Assembly (NCBI RefSeq): GCF_034424215.1
Contig: NZ_CP139960.1
Coordinates: 2,356,001 to 2,420,000, forward strand
Origin: Niabella yanshanensis
Lineage (GTDB): Bacteria; Bacteroidota; Bacteroidia; Chitinophagales; Chitinophagaceae
Direction of reading: 5' to 3'
Length of the DNA stretch: 64,000 nucleotides
The notes beneath the pieces are model-generated. The model ran no database searches. It saw only the letters and a program-made list of their open reading frames with translations, and was not told where the DNA came from. Of the stretch, positions 51,242-64,000 are shown piece after piece (position 1 is the stretch's first letter; the number at the start of each line of letters is the position of its first letter). The position numbers and the translations under genes were made by a program.

Positions 51242-51249
51242 TACTTTTG
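51242..51249 (+). promoter_or_regulatory. Bacteroidota -7 box in front of the lasso-peptide cluster
   Basis: TACTTTTG, an exact TAnnTTTG match, 35 bases before the kinase ATG. A small inverted repeat ACCCA/TGGGT with a 5-base loop (51257-51271) sits at the expected transcription start and might be an operator. Confidence 0.5.
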
Positions 51250-51283
51250 CAGCCTCACCCAATTAGTGGGTATTTTAAAATCA

Positions 51284-52207
51284 ATGGCTTATCATTACCT
51301 AGCATTCGGCATTCCTGTTATTTCAGAAATTGAACTGCCTGCATTATTTCCTATCAATGAATCCTCCAACCTGGAAAACCCGGTATATGTAAAGCTGGGC
51401 CTGGCGCCCGTTGAGCTTACAGGTGAGGGACAAAATGCTGATAGAAATGCTTACTGCAATGCTGATGAAATGATTTACACGATCAGCAAGAAAATCAAAT
51501 TCTATATTTCTAATGGCAACCAGGTGATCATTGAGCCGATTGCGGCGGATTACCGTACTAACCTGATTTATTTTTATTCCAACGGGCTAGCGGCTATTTT
51601 GTACCAGCGGGATATGATCCCGTTTCATGTGTCCGGAGTTTTCACCGGATCCGGAAAAGTTGCGCTCTTTGCAGCTCCCTCCGGCACAGGCAAGTCTACC
51701 CTGGCCGTAAAATTACAGGAGTTGGGGTTTCAGCCCTTTACAGATGATACCGCTGTATTATTTATAAAGGACGGGAAGTGTTATGCACAAGCGTCCTATC
51801 CTATGATCCGTTTGTGGGAACAAACATTGGATCAACAGCATTTGCTGAATATTGCCAATAAGCAAAAGATCTTTGATGATGGGGACCGGGATAAGTTTGG
51901 CTTTTCCTTCCACAGCCAGTTTGCAACAGCGCCGGTTGAGGTTGAAAAAATAATCTTCCTGGATAAAGAGGGTTCGGAAATGCGTCTGTCGCCTATAGGA
52001 AATATAGAAGCATTTAAAGCGCTTTCGGATAATGTGTATCGGAACCATTGGATACCGGTGATACAAAAAAGCAAATTACAGTTCTCATTAGTAGGTAAGA
52101 TATTGAATTGCACCCCTTATTTCTTGGCTCTGCGTCCCAAAGATGTCAATAGCATATCAGAATTCCCCCTATTCGTGAAAAAAATTTTGCAAAATGTTCA
52201 GAACTAG
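51284..52207 (+). CDS. HPr-kinase-like enzyme of a lasso-peptide cluster (putative lasso-peptide kinase)
   Basis: A 307-residue homologue of the HPr kinase C-terminal domain. The P-loop APSGTGKSTL spans residues 131-140, and the acidic pair Asp154-Asp155 in PFTDDTAVLF follows, as in HprK. The preceding FHVSGV with His115 matches the segment before the P-loop in this group. Homologues in paeninodin-type clusters phosphorylate the C-terminal Ser of the lasso precursor or peptide (established for that family), and the precursor next door ends in Ser. A GTG at 51266 opens the frame six codons earlier; I chose the ATG. First gene of the cluster. Confidence 0.82.
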   Translation: MAYHYLAFGIPVISEIELPALFPINESSNLENPVYVKLGLAPVELTGEGQNADRNAYCNADEMIYTISKKIKFYISNGNQVIIEPIAADYRTNLIYFYSNGLAAILYQRDMIPFHVSGVFTGSGKVALFAAPSGTGKSTLAVKLQELGFQPFTDDTAVLFIKDGKCYAQASYPMIRLWEQTLDQQHLLNIANKQKIFDDGDRDKFGFSFHSQFATAPVEVEKIIFLDKEGSEMRLSPIGNIEAFKALSDNVYRNHWIPVIQKSKLQFSLVGKILNCTPYFLALRPKDVNSISEFPLFVKKILQNVQN

Positions 52208-52208
52208 G

Positions 52209-52215
52209 TATTTTG
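52209..52215 (+). promoter_or_regulatory. Possible second promoter for the precursor gene
   Basis: TATTTTG, one base short of TAnnTTTG, 30 bases before the precursor ATG, with a TTTG about 20 bases further upstream at the end of the kinase gene. It would allow precursor transcription independent of the kinase gene. Confidence 0.35.
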
Positions 52216-52245
52216 CACCCCGTAATTAACATTAAAACTTAATTT

Positions 52246-52344
52246 ATGGAAACTAAAAAAACTTGGATCGCCCCGGAAATAGCTGAGATTGAAATCAACA
52301 ACGGAGTTGATGCCAAAACCGACTTTTCGAATACTGCAAGCTAA
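52246..52344 (+). CDS. Lasso-peptide precursor
   Basis: A 32-residue peptide beginning METKKTWIAPEIAEIEI and ending in Ser32. The leader contains W7-x-x-P10-x-I12, the counterpart of the Y-x-x-P-x-L motif read by the PqqD-like protein in lasso leaders. The best core candidate starts at Gly20 after NN: 13 residues with Asp26 at position 7, giving a seven-residue macrolactam ring as in xanthomonins, and the tail FSNTAS. The usual Thr at the second-last leader position is missing (Asn here). The C-terminal Ser fits modification by the adjacent kinase. It sits 38 bases after the kinase gene. Assignment as precursor is strong from context; the exact core is inference. Confidence 0.8.
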   Translation: METKKTWIAPEIAEIEINNGVDAKTDFSNTAS

Positions 52345-52382
52345 TTGTTATCAGGCAGTATTAGTTAATGCTAAAAAAATTT

Positions 52383-52413
52383 AAGCGGAGTTTAGTTTTA
52401 AACTCCGCTTTTT
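52383..52413 (+). terminator. Terminator-like hairpin between precursor and synthetase genes
   Basis: Twelve-base perfect arms AAGCGGAGTTTA and TAAACTCCGCTT around a short loop, followed by further T residues (TTTAT). It lies 12 bases before the start codon of the synthetase gene. It would end most transcripts after the precursor and let a minority continue into the enzymes. Confidence 0.85.
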
Positions 52414-52425
52414 ATTTAATGACTG

Positions 52426-54312
52426 ATGGACATCTTATCTGGGTGCTGGCAATATTACGATCCTGGTTCTATTGCCTCAACACTTAAAAAAATGTATAGT
52501 GCGTTCAAGGCACTGCCACATATTTCTTACAATTGTAAAACAATAGAATTTGTAGGATTTGGACACCTAGTTTCTGGGACGATTTCATCGGTTAACAACG
52601 CTCCCTTGTATTTGTCTGGTGAACGGTTACTTTTCGCTGCGCAAGGAAGAGTTGACAATATAGATAAACTCACTAAGGACCTGGGTGCTGAATTTAAGAA
52701 TTCATCTGGTTCTACGTTACTTTTGCAAGCCTACATAAAATGGGGGAAAGACTGCGTGCATTATTTGCGTGGCGATTGGAATATTGTAGTTTTTAACTGC
52801 AATACTGAAGAGTTATTTATAGCGCAAAGTCCAACCGGTTACACATCAATCTATTATTACCAGGATAATACCGGATTTTACTTCAGTTCCTCCATAAAAG
52901 GTATTCTGCAGCTTCCTAATTATTCCAAACAGTTGAACGAAACGCATTTCATGCGTCAGCTCACGCTATGGGATAGAAATAGATGCGAAAAAGATACCTT
53001 TTATAACAATATTTTTTCTTTACCCTTAGCACATTCCCTTACGGTAAAAAACAGGAGACTATCAATAGAAAGGTACTGGCAGCCGCAAAACATAGCTAAA
53101 AGGACCTACAAAAATAAGCAGGACTATGCAGATAAAATGACCGAACTGCTTACAACTGCTATTAAGGTCAGACTTTGTAGTCATAAGCCTGTTGCATCTA
53201 CCTTAAGCGGCGGTCTGGACAGCAGTACAGTAAGCTATATAGCGGCTGAGCTTCTGAAATCACAGCAAAAAAAGCTGGCCACTTTCAGCCATGTCCCCCT
53301 TTTTACATCTGATACGGCTCGGGATATAGAAAAGAAAAAAAGTATTTTGGATGAAACGCCTTTAATCGAAGAAGTTGTACGGGCTTCGGGAAATATTAGA
53401 CCGACATTATTAAATTCCTCCGGATACAGTGTACTTAATGGATTGAAAGACTTTTTACATATTTACGATGCACCGATTCACGGTGCAAGTAATGCCTTTT
53501 GGTTTCTTGACATTTATAAACAATCCAAGGAGGCAGGAATAGGTGTTATGCTTACTGGAGAGGGAGGTAATGGCAGCATCTCTTTTGCGGGTGCGCGCTA
53601 TATGCTTCCGCCAAATCTCTCTGGTTTTCTGCACAGCCCATTATGGTTTATGAGAAATCATATTATTAAGCCCGTTGCAAAAAGCCTTTTTGCAGACTAT
53701 ATTAGTAAAAGATCCTATAATAGAAATGATTTAAAAAAATATGCGTTAAACATTTTTGCACAGCCCTTCATGTTGGAAAAATGCAATATTGGCGCAACTA
53801 TTCCCGAAAATACCCAATCGCTAAAATTGAATAGCAGGGATATTAATCAAGACAAAGAGCTTTTTCTACATTTATACAATACTAGAAGCTTGGTAGGTGC
53901 GGCCTGTGGTCATTATTACGGAATAGAATTAAGAGACCCTACGGTAGATCAAGATGTTATGGAATATTTTTTCAGTATTCCTAATGAGGTCTTTTTTGAT
54001 GACCGACATAATAACCGCATGTTGGTAAAACGAATGATGCGGGGCAAAATACCGGACAGCGTTTTATTTGAAAAAAGAAAGGGTCTCCAAAGTGCGGATA
54101 TAGCGTATAGAGTGAAGGCACAAAGTGACGAAATTACTGCCGCTATCGATACGATAAACCGAAGTGCTGCGGCCAACCACTATATTAATACAACGGAATT
54201 GGCAAAAACCTGGTTGTCTTACTCAAAAGAATCGTATATACAACCTTATCAGATGCAACGGCTTCTGAAAGCTCTTCAATTTGCCTTATTTTTGCAAATC
54301 AATTTCGATTAG
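52426..54312 (+). CDS. Lasso-peptide macrolactam synthetase (asparagine-synthetase-like, C protein)
   Basis: A 628-residue homologue of class B asparagine synthetase. The ATP-pyrophosphatase loop is SGGLDSS at residues 261-267, and EGGNGSISFAG and RDPTVDQDVMEYFFSIP appear later, as in McjC-type proteins. The N-terminal half keeps the glutaminase fold (HLVSGTISSVNNAPLYLS, GRVDNIDKL, LRGDWNIVVFN) but starts MDIL and lacks the Cys2 nucleophile, as expected for lasso C proteins, which adenylate the Asp/Glu side chain and close the ring with the core N-terminus. The gene looks more AT-rich by eye than the ribosomal and carbohydrate genes. Fourteen bases separate it from the B1 gene. Confidence 0.9.
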   Translation: MDILSGCWQYYDPGSIASTLKKMYSAFKALPHISYNCKTIEFVGFGHLVSGTISSVNNAPLYLSGERLLFAAQGRVDNIDKLTKDLGAEFKNSSGSTLLLQAYIKWGKDCVHYLRGDWNIVVFNCNTEELFIAQSPTGYTSIYYYQDNTGFYFSSSIKGILQLPNYSKQLNETHFMRQLTLWDRNRCEKDTFYNNIFSLPLAHSLTVKNRRLSIERYWQPQNIAKRTYKNKQDYADKMTELLTTAIKVRLCSHKPVASTLSGGLDSSTVSYIAAELLKSQQKKLATFSHVPLFTSDTARDIEKKKSILDETPLIEEVVRASGNIRPTLLNSSGYSVLNGLKDFLHIYDAPIHGASNAFWFLDIYKQSKEAGIGVMLTGEGGNGSISFAGARYMLPPNLSGFLHSPLWFMRNHIIKPVAKSLFADYISKRSYNRNDLKKYALNIFAQPFMLEKCNIGATIPENTQSLKLNSRDINQDKELFLHLYNTRSLVGAACGHYYGIELRDPTVDQDVMEYFFSIPNEVFFDDRHNNRMLVKRMMRGKIPDSVLFEKRKGLQSADIAYRVKAQSDEITAAIDTINRSAAANHYINTTELAKTWLSYSKESYIQPYQMQRLLKALQFALFLQINFD

Positions 54313-54326
54313 TCAATTACGCCGGC

Positions 54327-54590
54327 ATGAACTATCAATTTAACGCAAAGGATATATTAATAACACAGCTAGGAGAAGAAGGTGTAGCATTTAACAGCGT
54401 TACGAACGAGTATTTTTCGTTAAATGAAACCTCCTTTAAAATTCTTAAAGGAATTGAAAATAATTTATCAGTTGACGCTATTTGCGAGCAATTGATAAAG
54501 GAATATGATATTGCAAAATCTGATTGTGAAAAGCAGGTAAATACCACCATTCAGCTTTTTCTTTCCAAGAAGTTGATTACAAAAGAATGA
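54327..54590 (+). CDS. PqqD-like leader-binding protein (lasso B1)
   Basis: An 87-residue PqqD/RRE domain protein. Residues 18-30 (EGVAFNSVTNEYF) form the beta-hairpin edge, followed by SLNETSFKILKGIENNLSVDAICEQLIKEYDIAKSDCEKQVNTTIQLFLSKKLI, the three-helix bundle typical of PqqD. In split-B lasso clusters this protein grips the leader through the Y/W-x-x-P motif and delivers it to the peptidase. Its stop overlaps the B2 start by four bases (ATGA), which indicates translational coupling. Confidence 0.9.
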   Translation: MNYQFNAKDILITQLGEEGVAFNSVTNEYFSLNETSFKILKGIENNLSVDAICEQLIKEYDIAKSDCEKQVNTTIQLFLSKKLITKE

Positions 54591-55027
54591 TCAACAAAAT
54601 CAAATCTTTTTTGAGATTAAGCCTATCCAGGAAAATCATAGTGATCCAGGCTTTTTGCGTATCGGTGTATACCTTTTTCCTTTTTAGATTTTTTAACCGG
54701 CGGGCCAGGTTCGGAGAAAAAATACCTTCCACAGGTAGCCTATATCAATTGCCTTATAAAAAGGCAATTGATATAGGCTGGGCTATACAAATTGTGGCTA
54801 AATATATCTCCTGGAAAAATGTATGCAGGCACCAGGCTTACCAGGCAAAATTGCTTTGTAACTTATACAAAATACCCTACATGATTTTTGTAGGTTTTAA
54901 GAAAGATGCGCATACAAATGAAATAGAAGCACATGCCTGGACGGTTGCCGGAGGGAAAATAATTACAGGGTTCTGTAATCCCGATGAGTACATGGTGCAA
55001 AGCGTATATAAAAATAAATGGCAATAG
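54587..55027 (+). CDS. Transglutaminase-like leader peptidase (lasso B2)
   Basis: A 146-residue cysteine protease of the lasso B2/McjB C-terminal type. The catalytic Cys80 is in WKNVCRHQAYQAKLL and His117 is in EAHAWTVAGG, the two signature blocks; a later Asp (about 133) in NPDEYM may complete the triad. The N-terminal 35 residues include a hydrophobic stretch (IIVIQAFCVSVYTFFLF), more than in soluble B2 proteins. The coding sequence contains a perfect 19-bp inverted repeat at residues 51-65 (YQLPYKKAIDIGW). The stop overlaps the exporter start by ten bases. Confidence 0.9.
   Translation: MINKIKSFLRLSLSRKIIVIQAFCVSVYTFFLFRFFNRRARFGEKIPSTGSLYQLPYKKAIDIGWAIQIVAKYISWKNVCRHQAYQAKLLCNLYKIPYMIFVGFKKDAHTNEIEAHAWTVAGGKIITGFCNPDEYMVQSVYKNKWQ
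54737..54779. repeat. Perfect 19-bp inverted repeat inside the B2 coding sequence
   Basis: The arms 54737-54755 and 54761-54779 are exact reverse complements with a 5-base loop (ATAAA). The core reads CCTATATCAATTGCC and its complement. As RNA this is one of the most stable stem-loops in the window. It encodes residues 51-65 without disturbing the frame. Confidence 0.9.
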
Positions 55028-56802
55028 AATTAAAAAACTTTAATCCCAGGGACCTGATCAAGAACATCAGGCGCTCTCTGCTGCTATTATGGGAAACAAG
55101 TAATTCTTTGGCATTATTGACCTTTGGCCTGCATATAATACAGGCCCTATTGCCCGTGGCCTCTCTTTACTTTATTAAGATATTAATAGAAGGCGTCACC
55201 AATAAACGGGATTTTTCTGAAATTGTTCCTTTTATCATTTACTTCCTGGTATCCCAGTTATTGCTTGCCCTTGCACAGCAATATGCCAACTACATTGTAA
55301 CCATTTATCAACTCCGGGTTACCGACTACCTGTCCAGGCAGGTTCTTGAAAAAGCAGTGAGTGTTGATTACGGGTATTATGAAAACCCCGCCTATCACGA
55401 TAATCTGCATTTAGCACAACAACAATCTCTGTACAGGGCAGGTATGCTGTTAACCAGCTTTACGGCCTTTATTACCTCTGGTTTTGCGCTCCTGTTTCTG
55501 CTGGCATTTTTTATCAGTATGCAGTCTTTTTTTGCGTTATTGTTTATTATGTTCTCTTTGCCCCTGGCTACTATAAAATGGTATTATGGCATTGCGATCA
55601 TGCAACAGGAGCGAAAACTAACCCCGCTTGAAAGAGAAAGCAATTACTTACACCAGATATTAACCGGCGTTAGTTTTGCAAAAGAAGCCCGGATGTTTGG
55701 CTTTGGCTCATTCTTCATCAGCAAATTTGTAAACATTCGCAATTTTATCAGGCTTCAAAAGCAACAGCTCAATAAAAAGCTCACCAATTATAGCCTCATT
55801 GCCGAAACCGTAGAAATAATTGCAATGGCTATTATTTTTGCTATGCTTGCCCGCCAAACCCTTGCAGGAGCTGTTTCTATTGGTCTTTTCGTGGTTTATA
55901 TCCAGGGGTTTCAAAGCCTGCAAAATAATTCGAAAAATTTCCTGCAAAGCATTGTACAGATTTTTCAGCAACGTATTTTCTTACAAGACCTGTTTTTGTT
56001 CCTCGATATACCTGCATCTCGTCAAACAAGCACTCTGAACCCCTTCCCACTTACTCGGTCAGGATTAATTATCAACAACCTTAGTTTTCAATATTCACCT
56101 GACAGTAAACAGGTGCTTCACAATGTGTCACTTCAATGTAAACCCGGGCAGATTATTGCCATTGTGGGTCAAAATGGATCAGGAAAATCTACCTTAATCA
56201 AACTCCTGGCTAAGCTGTATGAAGCGAGCCAGGGTCATATATTACTTGACGATACAGCAATCGGCGATATCCCCCCTCAGGTTTATAAAGATCAAACGGT
56301 TTTCCTGTTCCAGGATTTTGAAAAATATTTTTTTACAATAGAAGAAAATATTGTTTTGGGCGAGCCCGACAAGACAAAAACCACAGCTGACCTCCAATCG
56401 GCTGCAGAAGCTGCAGGTGCAGAAAGCCTGATAGCAAAATTGCCGCATGGCTATAAAACCCGCATGGGCCGCATTTTCGACGGCAGCACCCAGCTCAGCG
56501 GAGGAGAGTGGCAGAAAATTGCATTGGCGAGAGTCTTTTACCGCGATAAAGCCCAGTTGATTGTTTTGGACGAACCTACCAGTGCATTAGACGCGCCGGC
56601 TGAATACGAAATATTTAAACAAATCAAAGCCATTGCAAAAAACAAAATGGTTATTTTAATAACACACCGTTTATATAATTTAAAGATCGCCGATCATTTA
56701 TACGTGATGGAAAACGGCCGAATTGCGGAAGAGGGCTCTTTTGACGAATTGATTGAAAAAAATGGCGTATTTGCACAGCTTTATAATATGCAGCAACTAT
56801 GA
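55018..56802 (+). CDS. ABC transporter, permease-ATPase fusion (lasso-peptide exporter, D protein)
   Basis: A 594-residue type IV ABC exporter half-transporter. The N-terminal part has six transmembrane helices (LALLTFGLHIIQALLPVASLYFI, IVPFIIYFLVSQLLLALA, SFTAFITSGFALLFLLAFFISM and others) and the coupling-helix region YYENPAYHDNLHLAQQQS. The ATPase has Walker A VGQNGSGKST (residues 383-392), signature LSGGEWQ (493-499) and Walker B LIVLDEPTSALD. It would export the mature peptide and give immunity, as McjD does. It overlaps B2 by ten bases and the nucleotidyltransferase gene by four. Confidence 0.92.
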   Translation: MAIELKNFNPRDLIKNIRRSLLLLWETSNSLALLTFGLHIIQALLPVASLYFIKILIEGVTNKRDFSEIVPFIIYFLVSQLLLALAQQYANYIVTIYQLRVTDYLSRQVLEKAVSVDYGYYENPAYHDNLHLAQQQSLYRAGMLLTSFTAFITSGFALLFLLAFFISMQSFFALLFIMFSLPLATIKWYYGIAIMQQERKLTPLERESNYLHQILTGVSFAKEARMFGFGSFFISKFVNIRNFIRLQKQQLNKKLTNYSLIAETVEIIAMAIIFAMLARQTLAGAVSIGLFVVYIQGFQSLQNNSKNFLQSIVQIFQQRIFLQDLFLFLDIPASRQTSTLNPFPLTRSGLIINNLSFQYSPDSKQVLHNVSLQCKPGQIIAIVGQNGSGKSTLIKLLAKLYEASQGHILLDDTAIGDIPPQVYKDQTVFLFQDFEKYFFTIEENIVLGEPDKTKTTADLQSAAEAAGAESLIAKLPHGYKTRMGRIFDGSTQLSGGEWQKIALARVFYRDKAQLIVLDEPTSALDAPAEYEIFKQIKAIAKNKMVILITHRLYNLKIADHLYVMENGRIAEEGSFDELIEKNGVFAQLYNMQQL

Positions 56803-58025
56803 TGATTCCTATCGAAGATGTAAAATCAAAATATGGGACCGAAATATCAATGGTATTGCTATGCTGCCGGCTGCATTTTGATACTGAAAAACTTGCAACC
56901 TTACAGCACTGTATCGATACCTATGAAATTAACTGGGATGATGTTATCTATCTTTCAAGATATCATAGAATTGAACCTATTGTCTATAAGATACTAAGCA
57001 AGGCTAATTTGCCGGCCGCTATCGCTTTGCGCGTAAAGCAAAGTCAACTCCTCTTAGTTCAGAATAATTTTAAACAGGCTTTAGAGACTGAGCGAATAAT
57101 AGAATTGCTTGAAACCAGGGATATCGAATGTACGCCTTATAAAGGTGTTGCTTTTTCCATGCAGTTTTATGGCGATATTATATCCAGGGAGTCGAGCGAT
57201 ATAGACCTGGTGATATCACATAAAGACTTTGGCGAAGTGTTAAAGCTGATGACAGCGGATGGTTATATTTTTGAAAACGAAGTTGAATACAACTATTATA
57301 AAAAAGATATTTTTGATAAAAGCAATAGTCTCAACTTTGATAAATTTAAAAAGGACGTAAGAGAATTTCACATCGAATTTCATTGGCGGATAACTGAAAA
57401 CTTCATACAGGTTCACAGCGAGGCTCACAGGCAGCTATTCAATAATTCCGATAAAATTGTTTTAGCAAAGCGGGAAGTAAATGCATTAAACGTTAATGCC
57501 CATTATGTAACCATCTTCATTCATCATTCTAATCATGATGGGTTCAGAGTTCTTAAGAACCTTGTAGATCTTTGCCAATTCCTCCCTTCCAACAATCCTG
57601 CTATCGATATCAACTATATTAAAAAAGCTTTTAAAAACCTCCGGTTGGTAAAGGCTGCTGAAGTCTGTTGCTATCTTGCAGCTGAGGTATTAGGCGTTCA
57701 TCTGCCATTTTCCACAGCCAACAATGATAACAAAATACCTGAAAAATTAAAAGCATTTTTTGTAGAACGGCTACTGGGTAAAAGGTCCTACCGCGATACG
57801 GCTTTGGATAACCTCGACAACAGAAGCCAGCTATATCTCAAAGATTCCCTGTCGGAGAAAATCGCATTTATTTTTGCCGGTTTCAAACAAAGAACCTCCC
57901 CTTCTCCGGAAGACCTGCAAACCCTGAAATTAAACCGAAATCTACACTTTCTTTACCCTGCTATTAAATCCTTCAGGCTATTTACCAAAGGCATTGATAA
58001 GAAGCATATAAAAAAACAAAAATGA
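56799..58025 (+). CDS. Nucleotidyltransferase-family protein (PF14907 type) of the lasso cluster
   Basis: A 408-residue protein of the nucleotidyltransferase superfamily. The signature is CTPYKGVAFSMQFYGDIISRESSDIDLVI: Lys-Gly at residues 115-116, the aromatic GD turn and the metal-binding DID at 134-136. The middle and C-terminal parts are helical (FHIEFHWRITENFIQ; VTIFIHHSNHDGFRVLKNLVDLCQFL), as in other family members. Related genes recur in lasso-peptide clusters that also carry an HPr-kinase-like gene, where their role is unknown; transfer of a nucleotide or of a second phosphate group to the peptide is possible (inference). It overlaps the exporter gene by four bases and is the last gene of the operon. 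Confidence 0.85.
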   Translation: MMIPIEDVKSKYGTEISMVLLCCRLHFDTEKLATLQHCIDTYEINWDDVIYLSRYHRIEPIVYKILSKANLPAAIALRVKQSQLLLVQNNFKQALETERIIELLETRDIECTPYKGVAFSMQFYGDIISRESSDIDLVISHKDFGEVLKLMTADGYIFENEVEYNYYKKDIFDKSNSLNFDKFKKDVREFHIEFHWRITENFIQVHSEAHRQLFNNSDKIVLAKREVNALNVNAHYVTIFIHHSNHDGFRVLKNLVDLCQFLPSNNPAIDINYIKKAFKNLRLVKAAEVCCYLAAEVLGVHLPFSTANNDNKIPEKLKAFFVERLLGKRSYRDTALDNLDNRSQLYLKDSLSEKIAFIFAGFKQRTSPSPEDLQTLKLNRNLHFLYPAIKSFRLFTKGIDKKHIKKQK

Positions 58026-58953: not shown

Positions 58954-61900
58954 TTATCTGATCAACACCATTTTCCCGTACCCCTTATTAAAATACTTAT
59001 CGGTATTATTATCTTTTGTACTGTATTTATCCAGGCTTCTTCCATTCAAATTAGTAAGCACCCGGTACAGGTACACACCATTGCCCAGTTTTTGACCATA
59101 TTGATCGGTTCCATCCCATTTAAATTCGGTGATATTCCTCCCAATACGCAACGGCCCCAATTCAGCCTTGGTAATTTCACGAACGATCTTACCGGTTACC
59201 GTTAATATCTGGATTCTGATATTCTGTGGAATATCAGAACCGGTTAAAGTAAATACAAATGCGGTCGAACTTGTAAAAGGGTTAGGATAGTTGAGTAAGT
59301 TAGAGATCATGGGTTTGTTGATCACCTGGAATGCGATCCTGTAGTCGAGATTACCCGCAGTATTTCCGCTTTGGTCTTTTGCACTAACCATTAATTCATA
59401 ATCTCCGTCTGCCAGGAGGTGGGGCTTAAAGGTTACCGTAGCGGTGTTGGCATTATTACCGCCCTGACCCGGAGTGGTTAACACTAAAGTATCATTGTTA
59501 AACTTATAATCGCGCGTTGCACCATCAGGATGTTTCAATTGTACTTTTACCAGGTCGGTATTATTCAACAGCAGATACTTAGAGTCGTCAGTAAGCTTCA
59601 TCACGATAGTGGGCTTACTGGAAATAATATCCCTGTTAAGAATACGCGCGCCATCAAAAGTTACATCCAGATAGGGATTGGTGGTATCTCTTCGTACATG
59701 AAAATTCCGGGATACAAAATTATTAAACAGATATTGTTCAAGCTGGTGATGCCCGCCTTCCGGATTCACTTCCAGGTAAGCAAGATTGGTTCCACCGAAG
59801 GACCTGGTATCAACCGAAACATTCACCCGAACAGTATCTCCCGGTGCCAGGGGTTTTATTTTAGGAACATTTATTAAATGTTCTACATTGTTTTGATCAC
59901 GAATCGAAAGTTTAAGAGCCAAACTATCAAAACTATGATCACTCACATTTTTAAAGGCTATCCCCAGATTAAGCGGCTCACCGGCTTCTACTGTGTCTTT
60001 CGTGCTGAAATATATATTGGGAGCAATACCTCCTTCAGGTGCTGGAACATTATAAAGACGCCAATACTTTAGCTGATAGGGGCTTTTATCTATCGTATCA
60101 CGCGTTTGCAAAGCAATTCTTAAGCCTGCATAATTTTGTACATTAAGGGAAGAGAGATCCAATCGTTTCTGACTAACAGGTACCTGGCCAATTAATTCTG
60201 TTTCCCGGCCGGTTGCATCTACACCCAGCACAGCCAGAAAAGCATTATCCGTTGATGGAGTTTCAACACTATACCCATCCCAGACTAATGTTTTCCACTC
60301 TTTGGCTTTAGGGTAAACAGGAGATTTTACCGTACCTGTTGTTCCATAAGCAGGCACCGTAATACTCACACTTAGCTTATCGGATACAGTAGTGCCAACC
60401 GCCTGGGCTAATGGGCCGGGCTTTCCTTTTTGATAAATAAAAATATAAGGAACTACAGAGTTTACTAAATCCAACTCCGACAGGCCGATAGACTTAAGCT
60501 GGTGATATAACGAAATATTTCTACCAAGAACACTTGTGTCTGCCTGCCAGGCTGCCGGTAAAATTGTTGACCCAATTTGATTGCTTGTTAGCGCAACGTA
60601 ATAGCCATTTGGGATAGAATCTAAAAAGCTCATGACCGTCTTCCTGGCATTGGTTGTAGATATATCAAACTGAAAATACTTCACCAGCCTTGGATGAGTA
60701 CCTGCTATGGGAAGGGGGCGATAGCTACCGTACATACCACTTGCCCCCAGATCGGCGTTCTCGACCGGAGCAAGAGATCTGTTGTTAATTAAATAAAAAC
60801 GCAGCGAATTTTCCTGAGGGTTGGCACTCCCATTTGCCGGATTCATAATATATCCTCCCTGTATTCCTAACCCATTTATCTGGTAAGCAACATCATTAAG
60901 CAATCCTGGCGACCTTGTAATGGCGTTTGTAACGATTAATGAAGCTGTCAGGCTATCATAAACAAAGCTCCCGTCGCTTTTAATACCCATTTCACTGTAA
61001 GCATTGTCTATTAACTGTCCATAACCTGATTGACTGTAACCGTAATTCGTTCCCTGCATGTAGGTAAAAGAAGCTCCATTCCAGATAGGTTGCTCGTTAG
61101 CATTTGATGACTTATAAGCTACCCGCCAGTAATAAACTGTGCTGTCCTTAAATGTGAAACCGGGACTAAATTCAAGAAGTCCACCGGATGAAATTTTATT
61201 TTGGCTAATTTTAAAAGATGAATTGAATGTTCTCACCGTATCTATCTCTATTACATAATTTCTTGATTCGGCAAACGGGTTTCCTGTTGAAGCAGAAAGC
61301 ACTATATTCTGGCGATTTATTATGGAATAATTAGCAGGGAATACCGGTTTAATATCATCTTCGTAAATAAAAATATCCTTAATAAGTGTATTATTGGTTT
61401 CAAATAATTCACTAGTAGCGTTCTCCGGATCGATAGTAATCGTAAACTGGTTAGCACCCTTATCAATCAAAGGATCAATATGTATTTGATATAAGATTGA
61501 ATCTGCATAGCGTATAGGAGGTAATGTATCCCTTTGGATTATCTTTGTAGAAAGATCAGGCAGCGTTCTCTTTAATTCTACAATCACATTCCTGTTAACT
61601 GCCTTTCCCAGGTTAGCAATTTTTGCTTTTATAATGAAGCTCGGATCGGCTACCGAAACAATAGAAGGATTAACCGTAACCATTTGATCCTCGATAGCAT
61701 AATCCGGCTTGTCATACTGGTAGAAACGTATTGCGGGGTCTCCGTTCAAAGTATACTGCTCACATTGAGCTCTTACATACCTGTTTCCCTCACCACCCTG
61801 CTTTGCAAAAGTTTTAACAATTGCCTTTTGCATCATTTCTCCAAGGGTACCTCCATAGCTTGTTTTACTTAATTCAGCATATAGTTCCTGGTTATACAAC

Positions 61901-64000
61901 GCCAGAGATTGGATAAAACCCAACGCCGTTCCCGCCATCATAGCAATACTCCCCCTCTCCTTTTCAAACATAAACTTCTCTGAAAAAGTGGTAATATTGG
62001 AAAGTCGGGCCTCGTTCAAAATAAAAATATCTCCAACATTGCACCCCATCATATGGAATACAGGATATTTACCCTGGTTCAAATACCCGGTTGGGTCATC
62101 AAGTTTAAAGACAAGCCCTTCGGTACTTGAATGACCGAAGTAGGATACCAGGTTCACTCCGCTATTCATTAGCGATCTGAATGCTTCAGCTGCTTTTTGT
62201 TGTTCACCTGCGTTGGTGCTTTTCAGGAAATCAATAACATTAGCACCATATAAAGTATCGGTAGCAATATTTTTAGCGAAGTTCAATGCTGCATATAATT
62301 GACTGATTTCACCCGGAACGTCAGAACCGACTATATGAGCAATATTTTTTTTCCAGCTATTGGCTAGCGGATTCGGTTGGGGCAGCAATTTTTCTTCATA
62401 CTGTTTCACTTTTTCAAGGTAAATTGCAAATTCGTTGCCGTTTACTACAGGTACCCGGCCAATTGGAGTTAGGGGAATAGAACTTGCGCCCTCAGCAGCC
62501 AATAGCTTATCTGATGCAGGCTCTCCAAAGGTAGGAATGAGATTCAACCTGCCTGTTACCGGATTAGACTCATTATATCGGGCCGCAGTATACTTTACAC
62601 CCTTACCAACAATAAACACACTTTTGGGAGCAGTAGAAAAATGGCTCCGGGCAAACCTCAGAAAATTCCTTACACTCAAAGGGCTTCCTTTAATACCATA
62701 AGCAAATTGATCCGTTAACTGATCAATCAGGTATATCTTAGCATTATAACCTCCACCAGCCTGAGAGCTTCTATAGGCACGATATTCCTCAACAGGTTGA
62801 GATCCGCCCGATCCGTTCAATATGGCTTGATGTGTGATCATTAAATAATTCCCCTGATTGGCCGGAGCGGAATAATCAATAAAACTCCTTGTTTCGAAAT
62901 TGTTGATCGTTTTAACAGTGGCAGTATTTACTAATACTACCTCCGCATTGGCTATAGAAGGCAATACATATATTTTTACAAGGGAGGGATTAGAGGCATC
63001 GGCGTCATATCTCTTTCCACTGCTGAGGTCATATAAAACAGGAGCACCTGAAGTGTTAAAGCCGGCAATTTCCATGTACTTGCCGGTAGCAGTTGCGCCC
63101 GGTAGTTTAAAACGGAAATTACCCGAACCTCCAAAATTGAAAATGCGGGGATAGACAATTTCAATGGCGCCAATTTTAATACGATTATTGGCAACCGCAG
63201 ATATATTTGATACCTGAATGCTTTCTGAAGCACCGGTTAAAGCAGTAACAGGCAGGGTGCCGGATAATCTGGAATAATTGAATTGGTTTAAGGTTGTATT
63301 GAATACTTCATTATTATTCAATTTCATTTGTACCACCCGGCTATTGTCACTGTTGCCCACAACGCGCATATTAAGTTGCATTGGAGGAGCGCCAGAACCA
63401 GTGAACGGGAATAATCCGGATTGTGGAATTGTTCTTGTTTGATTTTGATTTATTTCATTCGAGGTCCAGCCTTCGCCTCCTTCAAAAGAAGCCGAAATTG
63501 CCGGAGTTGACACAGCACCTTCATAAGGCCCTAAATGTATGCTCTCATTGAGATAAATACCTGCAGTATGCATGAAATAAGGCTCCGCAACCGCACCTGC
63601 AGGTATGGTGTTAGCTGTGGGTATAAGTCTTTTGTTACTGCCGGCTGCATTTACAGTAAGGAAATAAGCGGCTGTGTCGGTAAACAAGCTTTTGCTGTTG
63701 TTAATCTGGTCCAGCGGATTACGATATAGTACCTGATCCGCCTTACCATCGTTGACCTCACCCCAGAACTCTATGAACCCGCCAGCAGCCAAAGCACCGG
63801 TTTGACCGGAAGTGTAAATGGGCACTTCTACCCCGTTACGCCAGAGCTGAAAAGCCGAAACATCGGTATTAGCCTGATTGATGGCCACCAATGCCGATTG
63901 CGGGATCCTGTAAAGCCCGTTGGATCCCACTTTAAATTTGTAATAGGTTTTGCTATAATCGATCCACTCATTATTAAATGATTGCGCCAGGGCAGTCATT
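58954..64000 (-). CDS. C25 family cysteine peptidase, PorU2-like (type IX secretion), 5' end cut by the window
   Basis: At least 1681 residues are visible; the first ones, ALAQSFNNEW, look like the end of a signal peptide, so only a short N-terminal piece is missing. A gingipain-type C25 domain contains the catalytic His623 in YFGHSSTEG and Cys653 in HMMGCNVGD (visible numbering). CARDB-like and other beta domains follow (IIKAKIANLGKAVNRNVIVELKR; LNLGIAFKNVSDHSFDSLALKLSI). The end is a type IX sorting domain with NYPNPFTSSTAFVFTL, GRNITEFKWDGTDQYGQKLGNGVYLYR and GKMVLIR. PorU is the sortase that cleaves such domains; the large paralogue with the same active site is called PorU2 in Bacteroidota annotation. 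It might also be a gingipain-like cargo protease. Upstream neighbour of the GT2 gene. Confidence 0.85.
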   Translation of the reverse strand, partial: MTALAQSFNNEWIDYSKTYYKFKVGSNGLYRIPQSALVAINQANTDVSAFQLWRNGVEVPIYTSGQTGALAAGGFIEFWGEVNDGKADQVLYRNPLDQINNSKSLFTDTAAYFLTVNAAGSNKRLIPTANTIPAGAVAEPYFMHTAGIYLNESIHLGPYEGAVSTPAISASFEGGEGWTSNEINQNQTRTIPQSGLFPFTGSGAPPMQLNMRVVGNSDNSRVVQMKLNNNEVFNTTLNQFNYSRLSGTLPVTALTGASESIQVSNISAVANNRIKIGAIEIVYPRIFNFGGSGNFRFKLPGATATGKYMEIAGFNTSGAPVLYDLSSGKRYDADASNPSLVKIYVLPSIANAEVVLVNTATVKTINNFETRSFIDYSAPANQGNYLMITHQAILNGSGGSQPVEEYRAYRSSQAGGGYNAKIYLIDQLTDQFAYGIKGSPLSVRNFLRFARSHFSTAPKSVFIVGKGVKYTAARYNESNPVTGRLNLIPTFGEPASDKLLAAEGASSIPLTPIGRVPVVNGNEFAIYLEKVKQYEEKLLPQPNPLANSWKKNIAHIVGSDVPGEISQLYAALNFAKNIATDTLYGANVIDFLKSTNAGEQQKAAEAFRSLMNSGVNLVSYFGHSSTEGLVFKLDDPTGYLNQGKYPVFHMMGCNVGDIFILNEARLSNITTFSEKFMFEKERGSIAMMAGTALGFIQSLALYNQELYAELSKTSYGGTLGEMMQKAIVKTFAKQGGEGNRYVRAQCEQYTLNGDPAIRFYQYDKPDYAIEDQMVTVNPSIVSVADPSFIIKAKIANLGKAVNRNVIVELKRTLPDLSTKIIQRDTLPPIRYADSILYQIHIDPLIDKGANQFTITIDPENATSELFETNNTLIKDIFIYEDDIKPVFPANYSIINRQNIVLSASTGNPFAESRNYVIEIDTVRTFNSSFKISQNKISSGGLLEFSPGFTFKDSTVYYWRVAYKSSNANEQPIWNGASFTYMQGTNYGYSQSGYGQLIDNAYSEMGIKSDGSFVYDSLTASLIVTNAITRSPGLLNDVAYQINGLGIQGGYIMNPANGSANPQENSLRFYLINNRSLAPVENADLGASGMYGSYRPLPIAGTHPRLVKYFQFDISTTNARKTVMSFLDSIPNGYYVALTSNQIGSTILPAAWQADTSVLGRNISLYHQLKSIGLSELDLVNSVVPYIFIYQKGKPGPLAQAVGTTVSDKLSVSITVPAYGTTGTVKSPVYPKAKEWKTLVWDGYSVETPSTDNAFLAVLGVDATGRETELIGQVPVSQKRLDLSSLNVQNYAGLRIALQTRDTIDKSPYQLKYWRLYNVPAPEGGIAPNIYFSTKDTVEAGEPLNLGIAFKNVSDHSFDSLALKLSIRDQNNVEHLINVPKIKPLAPGDTVRVNVSVDTRSFGGTNLAYLEVNPEGGHHQLEQYLFNNFVSRNFHVRRDTTNPYLDVTFDGARILNRDIISSKPTIVMKLTDDSKYLLLNNTDLVKVQLKHPDGATRDYKFNNDTLVLTTPGQGGNNANTATVTFKPHLLADGDYELMVSAKDQSGNTAGNLDYRIAFQVINKPMISNLLNYPNPFTSSTAFVFTLTGSDIPQNIRIQILTVTGKIVREITKAELGPLRIGRNITEFKWDGTDQYGQKLGNGVYLYRVLTNLNGRSLDKYSTKDNNTDKYFNKGYGKMVLIR

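Follow-up and report, generated by a model that had tools for sequence, protein, structure and literature searches.

We describe a lasso-peptide gene cluster of seven open reading frames at positions 51284-58025 of a 64,000-nucleotide stretch of the Niabella yanshanensis chromosome (Bacteroidota; Chitinophagaceae), hereafter the window; the chromosome is a single contig of 5.54 Mb. In the explanation that we favour, with a probability of about 0.7, the cluster would make a small lasso peptide that is phosphorylated and then decorated, and its kinase (K), recognition element (B1), leader peptidase (B2), nucleotidyltransferase (N) and exporter (D) would also act, in trans, on a second pair of precursor and cyclase, which lies outside the window at a distance of about 2.2 Mb. 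Gene identities, a common leader tag, single copies of B1 and B2 and the conservation of the second pair were computed; we infer the chemistry of each step, the site of cleavage and the action in trans. K would phosphorylate the C-terminal Ser of the precursor (A), B1 would bind the KKxWIxPE motif of the leader, and B1 and B2 together would cut after a short leader ending in Ile(-2)-Asn(-1). The cyclase (C) would then close Asn1 onto Asp8, N would decorate the phosphate, most likely with a hexose, and D would export the product. The second pair (L028:5808-7752) would be served in trans by the same K/B1/B2/N/D line, with exchangeable precursor-cyclase pairs plugging into one line through the common leader tag. 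The genes run in the order K, A, C, B1, B2, D, N, and the features of the cluster are as follows.

51284-52207, plus strand: K, peptide kinase with a phosphoenolpyruvate carboxykinase (PEPCK)/HPr-kinase fold, 307 amino acids, predicted to phosphorylate the C-terminal Ser; ATG start, with an in-frame GTG at 51266
52246-52344, plus strand: A, precursor peptide of 32 amino acids (leader METKKTWIAPEIAEIEIN, core NGVDAKTDFSNTAS), with its leader kept in six main-cluster Niabella precursors
52246-52299, plus strand: leader of A, with a KKxWxxPE recognition motif, a short spacer and Ile(-2)-Asn(-1); the sole register under the rule of T/I/V/M at -2 and D/E at +7 to +9
52300-52341, plus strand: inferred core of A, with an Asn1-Asp8 macrolactam, the tail FSNTAS and a C-terminal Ser; Asp/Ser pattern present in eight Niabella precursors
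52383-52410, plus strand: terminator-like hairpin between A and C, a possible attenuator, with a 12-base-pair stem and a T run
52426-54312, plus strand: C, asparagine-synthetase-like lasso cyclase, 628 amino acids (NF033535, 1.4e-73; PF00733, 1.2e-29)
54327-54590, plus strand: B1, PqqD-like recognition element, 87 amino acids (PF05402, 5.4e-12; NF033536, 3e-11)
54587-55027, plus strand: B2, transglutaminase-like leader peptidase, 146 amino acids, Cys80/His116 (NF033537)
55018-56802, plus strand: D, ABC exporter, 594 amino acids (PF00005, 2.1e-28; MsbA-like profiles)
56799-58025, plus strand: N, tailoring enzyme with a PF14907 nucleotidyltransferase fold, 408 amino acids (PF14907, 1e-46, over the cut-off)

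The window locus is almost certainly a lasso cluster. Profile, fold and comparative evidence support its assignment to the split-B type, with a kinase like that of paeninodin clusters and a Bacteroidota host. A preliminary description, made from the letters of the stretch, had proposed this class and had listed seven genes on one strand, the last four overlapping by 4-10 bases. All of the frames are present, with overlaps of 4, 10 and 4 bases at B1/B2, B2/D and D/N, and profiles, fold and comparison agree with the class, as does the C-terminal Ser conserved in Niabella precursors. B2 scores 48 bits against NF033537 (lasso B2), above the curated cut-off of 33 (E 1.5e-12), and in its alignment of 32 rows C80 occurs in 97% and H116 in 100%. 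The top NCBIfam match of C is the lasso cyclase family NF033535 (248.6 bits, below a cut-off of 525 bits). Lasso-type homologues of the synthetase and of B2, whose absence had been named beforehand as damaging to the proposal, were thus both found. B1 lies above the cut-off of PF05402, and its top NCBIfam match is NF033536 (lasso PqqD), below the cut-off of that family.

Some of these scores weigh against the assignment. Curated NCBIfam cut-offs are missed by C, B1 and K, the last of which has weak HprK-related matches (HprK_rel_A, 7.6e-6, below cut-off). NF033535 is also unspecific: three ordinary synthetases reach 194-336 bits, so that all of them outscore the second cyclase (183) and one outscores the window C (249). 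Lasso cyclases are told from ordinary synthetases by rank order, tree position and an adjoining precursor, and not by the NF033535 bit score. NF033535 ranks first, with TIGR01536 below its cut-off, for the window C, the second cyclase, the C of L122 and the main C of L041, L026 and L045, whereas TIGR01536 comes first and above cut-off in all three extra synthetases that lack a precursor. Furthermore, the window C groups in the tree with the C proteins of other lasso clusters. Genome G010 carries a gene (L136:195-2201) that scores 1e-160 with the C profile and falls among lasso cyclases, and on these two grounds it may be another cyclase standing alone; its 4.5 kb stretch showed neither a precursor nor B genes.

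A search with C found a match in six of 17 Niabella genomes, the window genome included, and all six hold K, A, C, B1 and B2, together with D in whole or in part. N was seen in five of these clusters (the contig of G686 ends inside D). Because the genes stay together in five further Niabella genomes and the precursor leader is conserved, the cluster is more than a chance arrangement. The ribosomal genes beside it have DNA matches in N. hibiscisoli, G677 and G107. Matches to the B2 family (E<=1e-4) occurred in 11 of 298 genomes of the order and in 23 of 394 genomes of the family. Across 31 clusters with a cyclase (the window's and 30 further loci), K is present in 28 and N in 21. These counts exclude L043 (a duplicate of L015), L021 and L076 (B2 only in the stretch), and L068 and L073 (no precursor seen, with the L068 cyclase cut by the contig). 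Also excluded were the second precursor copies of L065 and L066 (ending in Pro), L070 and L072 (Thr) and L074 (Ser), and both L024 peptides, which end in Ser and are ambiguous in register.

Between relatives, divergence is concentrated in the core and the cyclase. Between the window and N. hibiscisoli, the local DNA match (83%) extends from the ribosomal genes as far as 52299, where the inferred leader ends, and resumes at 53854 within C; the match to G677 ends at 52304 and resumes at 53909 within C. The gap region holds one match in each case, of 66% over 543 columns for N. hibiscisoli and of 75% over 109 for G677. Over residues 1-480 of C, identity is 49% (N. hibiscisoli) and 39% (G677), whereas K, B1, B2 and D reach 72-91%. 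This identity is not at its floor, since outgroup C proteins are lower still (G523, 30-39%; G281, 23-30%). We lean, by a little, towards an exchange of core and cyclase by recombination as the account of these sequences. The window-N. hibiscisoli distance, divided by the distance from other Niabella, is 1.04 (0.94-1.15) for residues 1-480 of C, compared with 0.58 (0.51-0.65) for K, B1, B2 and D together and 0.53 (0.36-0.71) for C residues 500-628. Fast local evolution of the core and of C residues 1-480, rather than a recombined core-cyclase cassette, is a serious competitor, to which we give somewhat less than even odds. In C, as in several flanking genes, synonymous sites are almost saturated, and recombination and fast evolution are therefore not separable by synonymous rates. 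The approximately unbiased test against a clade of the window and N. hibiscisoli (with G677) was borderline (p 0.059 and 0.048). In addition, the excess in G677 extends beyond residues 1-480, its ratio for C residues 500-628 being high as well at 0.91 (0.71-1.13), in a damaged assembly whose numbers are rough. Further genes are mosaic as well. The operon's last gene seems to have been replaced too, because N shows 77-81% identity to its counterparts in N. hibiscisoli and G677 and only 27-29% to those in G688 and G107 (L026, L041). D and K give differing distance ratios for G688-G107.

The favoured core of A, NGVDAKTD8FSNTAS, has a ring of eight and a C-terminal Ser, and we regard this Asn1-Asp8 register as probable. 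With WIAPEI as the leader motif and Asp8 in the core, the precursor shows an aromatic-xxP motif and an Asp/Glu 7-9 residues into the core. The register rule (T, I, V or M at -2; Asp or Glu at +7 to +9), to which Met at -2 was admitted only once the second precursor of the window genome was known, was applied to 31 hand-picked precursors, comprising eight from Niabella (six main, two of the second pair) and 23 others. Each of the eight Niabella precursors has exactly one register, a Trp-to-core distance of 12, a leader ending in [I/M]N and a terminal Ser; the ring Asp is at +8 in seven and at +9 in the eighth. Among the others, 21 of 23 have a register at distance 15-17 (15 for L072, hand-counted from its Trp), several admitting further registers, and L020 and L069 have none at that distance. 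The six main-cluster Niabella leaders are 3-5 residues shorter than those of these 21 and end in Ile(-2)-Asn(-1), not Thr(-2).

In all eight Niabella precursors the recognition motif lies at -12 to -7, not at -17 to -12, and the other precursors surveyed vary too (15-17). According to Duan et al. 2023 (PMC10368454; here and below, cited papers are represented by their available sections), the motif "always" spans -17 to -12. The Thr(-2) typical of split-B clusters is Ile in our favoured register; this lowers typicality but not split-B membership, because Ile/Val(-2) is a documented exception, found in Bradymonadales, Acidobacteriaceae and Sphingomonadales (PMC10368454). Within Bacteroidota, favoured registers place Ile at -2 in the six main Niabella precursors, one precursor of the second pair, L025, L047 and L071, and Val in L022, L067 and L074.

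Two points count against the Asn1 register: Gly is the commonest first residue of lasso cores, and Asn1 is rare among known lasso peptides. In the alternative for A, the core would begin one residue later (GVDAKTDFSNTAS), with a Gly1-Asp7 ring and a leader ending in Asn-Asn, in the same lasso cluster; the first core residue would then be G, A, G, D, G and S for the window, N. hibiscisoli, G677, G688, G107 and G686, respectively. We consider this shifted start unlikely. In five of the six main precursors it leads to a ring of seven, with Asn or another residue at -2, and the same shift on the second pair gives Asn1 and again a ring of seven, while most other precursors have a register with a ring of eight or nine. 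The local DNA match to N. hibiscisoli also stops at the last base of codon 18, although such ends are soft and the G677 match reaches 52304.

The second pair stands at about 4.609 Mb of the chromosome (G000:C1). Its cyclase is the only other PF00733 gene of the window genome, and its precursor (leader MKMNLNPIRSKKDWITPETTENHMN, core GNGGGGPDFASELPNGS) lies directly before it, the stop adjoining the likely cyclase start at L028:5938. Neighbouring genes encode LepA, AHSA1 proteins, an AraC regulator, a hydrolase, a YaiO protein and a glycosyltransferase; K, B1, B2, D and N were not found beside the pair in a 12 kb stretch. PF05402 (PqqD, E<=0.01), PF13471 and NF033537 have a single match each in the whole genome, and each of these matches lies in the window cluster. 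The second leader bears the same short KKxWIxPE...[I/M]N tag as the main cluster. In a quick tree, however, the second cyclase clusters with the cyclases of L018, L122, L023, L025 and L063-L066 (Shimodaira-Hasegawa-like approximate likelihood-ratio support 97), apart from the Niabella main cyclases (100). The leaders of these relatives end in Thr-Leu or Thr-Lys at distance 16 (Ile-Gln at 15 in L025). Because they carry Thr(-2) at distance 16, the tag of the second leader follows the local B1/B2 and not its own cyclase. The simplest reading of these sequences is that the second leader is fitted to the window's B1/B2, and we think it likely that the pair would be processed in trans by the window line. 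That the second leader bears the same unusual tag suggests two different knotted peptides on one processing and export line.

N. hibiscisoli has an orthologous pair in matching surroundings (L091; leader MKMNVNPISSKKDWIAPETIEIHIN, core GNGGGGPDFASELTVGS). Its cyclase, read across a frame break of that assembly, is 78% identical to that of the window genome, with a ratio of non-synonymous to synonymous rates (dN/dS) of 0.23 over 588 codons. The N. hibiscisoli genome has one PF13471 match above the cut-off and one weak match below it. In the draw of 394 family genomes, from whose matching genomes N. hibiscisoli is absent, other matches to the second cyclase (E<=1e-45) are at most 34% identical.

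Several observations tell against processing in trans. The second leader of the window genome has Met, not Ile, at -2, and the second cyclase is a long branch in the quick tree. The pair is present in two of the six Niabella genomes with the main cluster: G107, G686 and G688 match the second cyclase only through their main C, and G677, in an assembly too damaged to tell, gives no match. The lack of a counterpart in G107, G686 and G688 and the distance of about 2.2 Mb from the window's B1/B2 would fit a relic, or a precursor cut by an unrelated protease. We doubt this, as the frames are intact in the window genome, the dN/dS of 0.23 indicates purifying selection, and the core GNGGGGPDFASEL..GS and the leader tag are kept in two species. 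We reject an ordinary asparagine or polysaccharide synthetase as the identity of the second asparagine-synthetase gene, given the lasso-type precursor in front of it, the lasso model ranking first (with fewer bits than for ordinary synthetases) and the lasso grouping. Of 20 extra cyclase-like stretches, 19, among them L136, showed no peptide judged lasso-like, and one (L122, in G223) has a lasso-type precursor beside its cyclase. Some 14 kb from this pair (L122:2342-4460) lies another such cyclase; the genome has three of them against two B2 genes, and G223 may be a second case of an extra precursor-cyclase pair.

The C-terminal Ser is probably phosphorylated. Residues H115, S133, G136, K137, S138, T139, D154 and D155 are invariant in 12 aligned kinases and agree with the His-Lys-Asp-Asp motif published for lasso kinases (PMC10368454, PMC9266682). 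The structure model of K (predicted local distance difference test, pLDDT, 90.8) matches PEPCKs and, lower, HPr kinase 3tqf, pointing to a PEPCK/HPr-kinase fold; at the sequence level, solved structures yielded weak PEPCK matches at best for K and no match for N. The 31 hand-picked precursors end in Ser (29) or Thr (2). In a mechanical control within 1 kb of C, a zone outside which the precursors of L019 and L046 fall, 29 of 48 same-strand candidates end in Ser/Thr, compared with 3 of 19 on the opposite strand. The conserved C-terminal Ser of kinase clusters has already been published (review PMC9266682). It also occurs, to the detriment of our proposal, in three clusters with no visible kinase (L018, L023 and L045), and for this reason a C-terminal Ser alone is no proof of kinase action.

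K might instead target a ring Ser/Thr, as BsfK phosphorylates core Ser3 (PMC10368454), or N might act elsewhere, the C-terminal Ser being kept for another reason, as its presence in clusters without a visible kinase would allow. We regard this as quite improbable: the third residue in the Niabella cores, as inferred, is V, G, G, G, G, I, G and G, never Ser/Thr, and BsfA ends in Asp (PMC10368454), whereas all eight Niabella precursors end in Ser. Two loci, L070 and L072 (G952, G906), have two adjacent kinases and two precursors each ending in His-Thr, perhaps a sign of Thr phosphorylation. L065 and L066 (G935, G956) carry two precursors in tandem, of which the first ends in Ser and the second in Ser-Ala-Pro, and with that second ending one product might escape C-terminal phosphorylation.

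N has K115, G116, R130, E131, D134, D136, E193 and H195 invariant across nine aligned proteins. Its model (pLDDT 82.8) gives weak matches to nucleotidyltransferases and FKRP (best E 1e-3, none under 0.001); FKRP transfers ribitol phosphate from CDP-ribitol. By analogy, we are slightly inclined to see N as adding a sugar-type group, and we speculate that it transfers a phospho-sugar from a nucleotide sugar. The further nucleotide- or phosphate-derived group suggested in the preliminary description can be refined: PsmN, a functional precedent for N, adds hexose to phosphorylated Ser (PMC9266682), so that hexose-phosphate is likelier than a nucleotide decoration.

The hairpin between A and C has a folding energy of -16.8 kcal/mol (z -4.8), and a similar one, judged by eye, is found in five of six aligned Niabella loci. 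A scan for sigma-70 promoters found 25, with 19.8 expected. On the minus strand, 58954-63999 encodes a large Peptidase_C25 protein unrelated to the lasso cluster, which we take to be a PorU-like type IX secretion component.

The earlier reading of this DNA had overlooked three features: the shortness of the leader with its Ile(-2), the divergence of the module formed by core and cyclase, and the second pair of precursor and cyclase, unlinked to the cluster. We give even odds to a plug-in system, in which one K/B1/B2/N/D line would accept, through a short Ile-Asn tag, interchangeable pairs of precursor and cyclase, of which one would have been replaced within the operon and another would be supplied in trans with a cyclase of a different lineage. 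These findings suggest that a lasso cyclase goes with the core, and the leader with the peptidase and recognition protein, a natural form of mix-and-match biosynthesis. They open tests of how short a leader can be and of whether two cyclases of different lineages can share a single B1/B2 pair. Additionally, a genome-mining rule that requires B genes beside every precursor misses unlinked precursor-cyclase pairs. The literature searched contained no lasso peptide from Niabella or Chitinophagaceae and, by titles and abstract beginnings, no unlinked precursor-cyclase pair; subscription papers lie mostly outside it, making both weak evidence of absence.

Among the systems compared here, the bsf cluster published for Bradymonas sediminis (Duan et al. 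2023, PMC10368454) has the same seven genes, A, B1, B2, C, D, K and N, and a phosphorylating kinase helped by B1. Its Ile(-2) is verified by experiment, and ours is inferred. BsfA ends in Asp and is phosphorylated on Ser3, whereas the window precursor ends in Ser; its recognition motif lies at -17 to -12, and the window's at -12 to -7. The available parts of that paper mention no second precursor-cyclase pair, of which the window genome has one. Lasso clusters of Butyrivibrio also contain HPr kinase and uncharacterised nucleotidyltransferase genes, a likeness by description, but belong to Firmicutes and were described in silico only (PMC7533575). Paeninodin (pade) shares with the window B1, B2 and a kinase with the His-Lys-Asp-Asp motif, and its C-terminal Ser is phosphorylated; its host is Paenibacillus, and the passages available from PMC9266682 mention no N gene. 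Pseudomycoidin (psm), from Bacillus pseudomycoides and thus from a different host, resembles the window in combining K with an annotated nucleotidyltransferase N in one cluster, a likeness drawn from gene descriptions. There, K and N tailor the C-terminal Ser by (poly)phosphorylation followed by the addition of one or two hexoses (PMC9266682).

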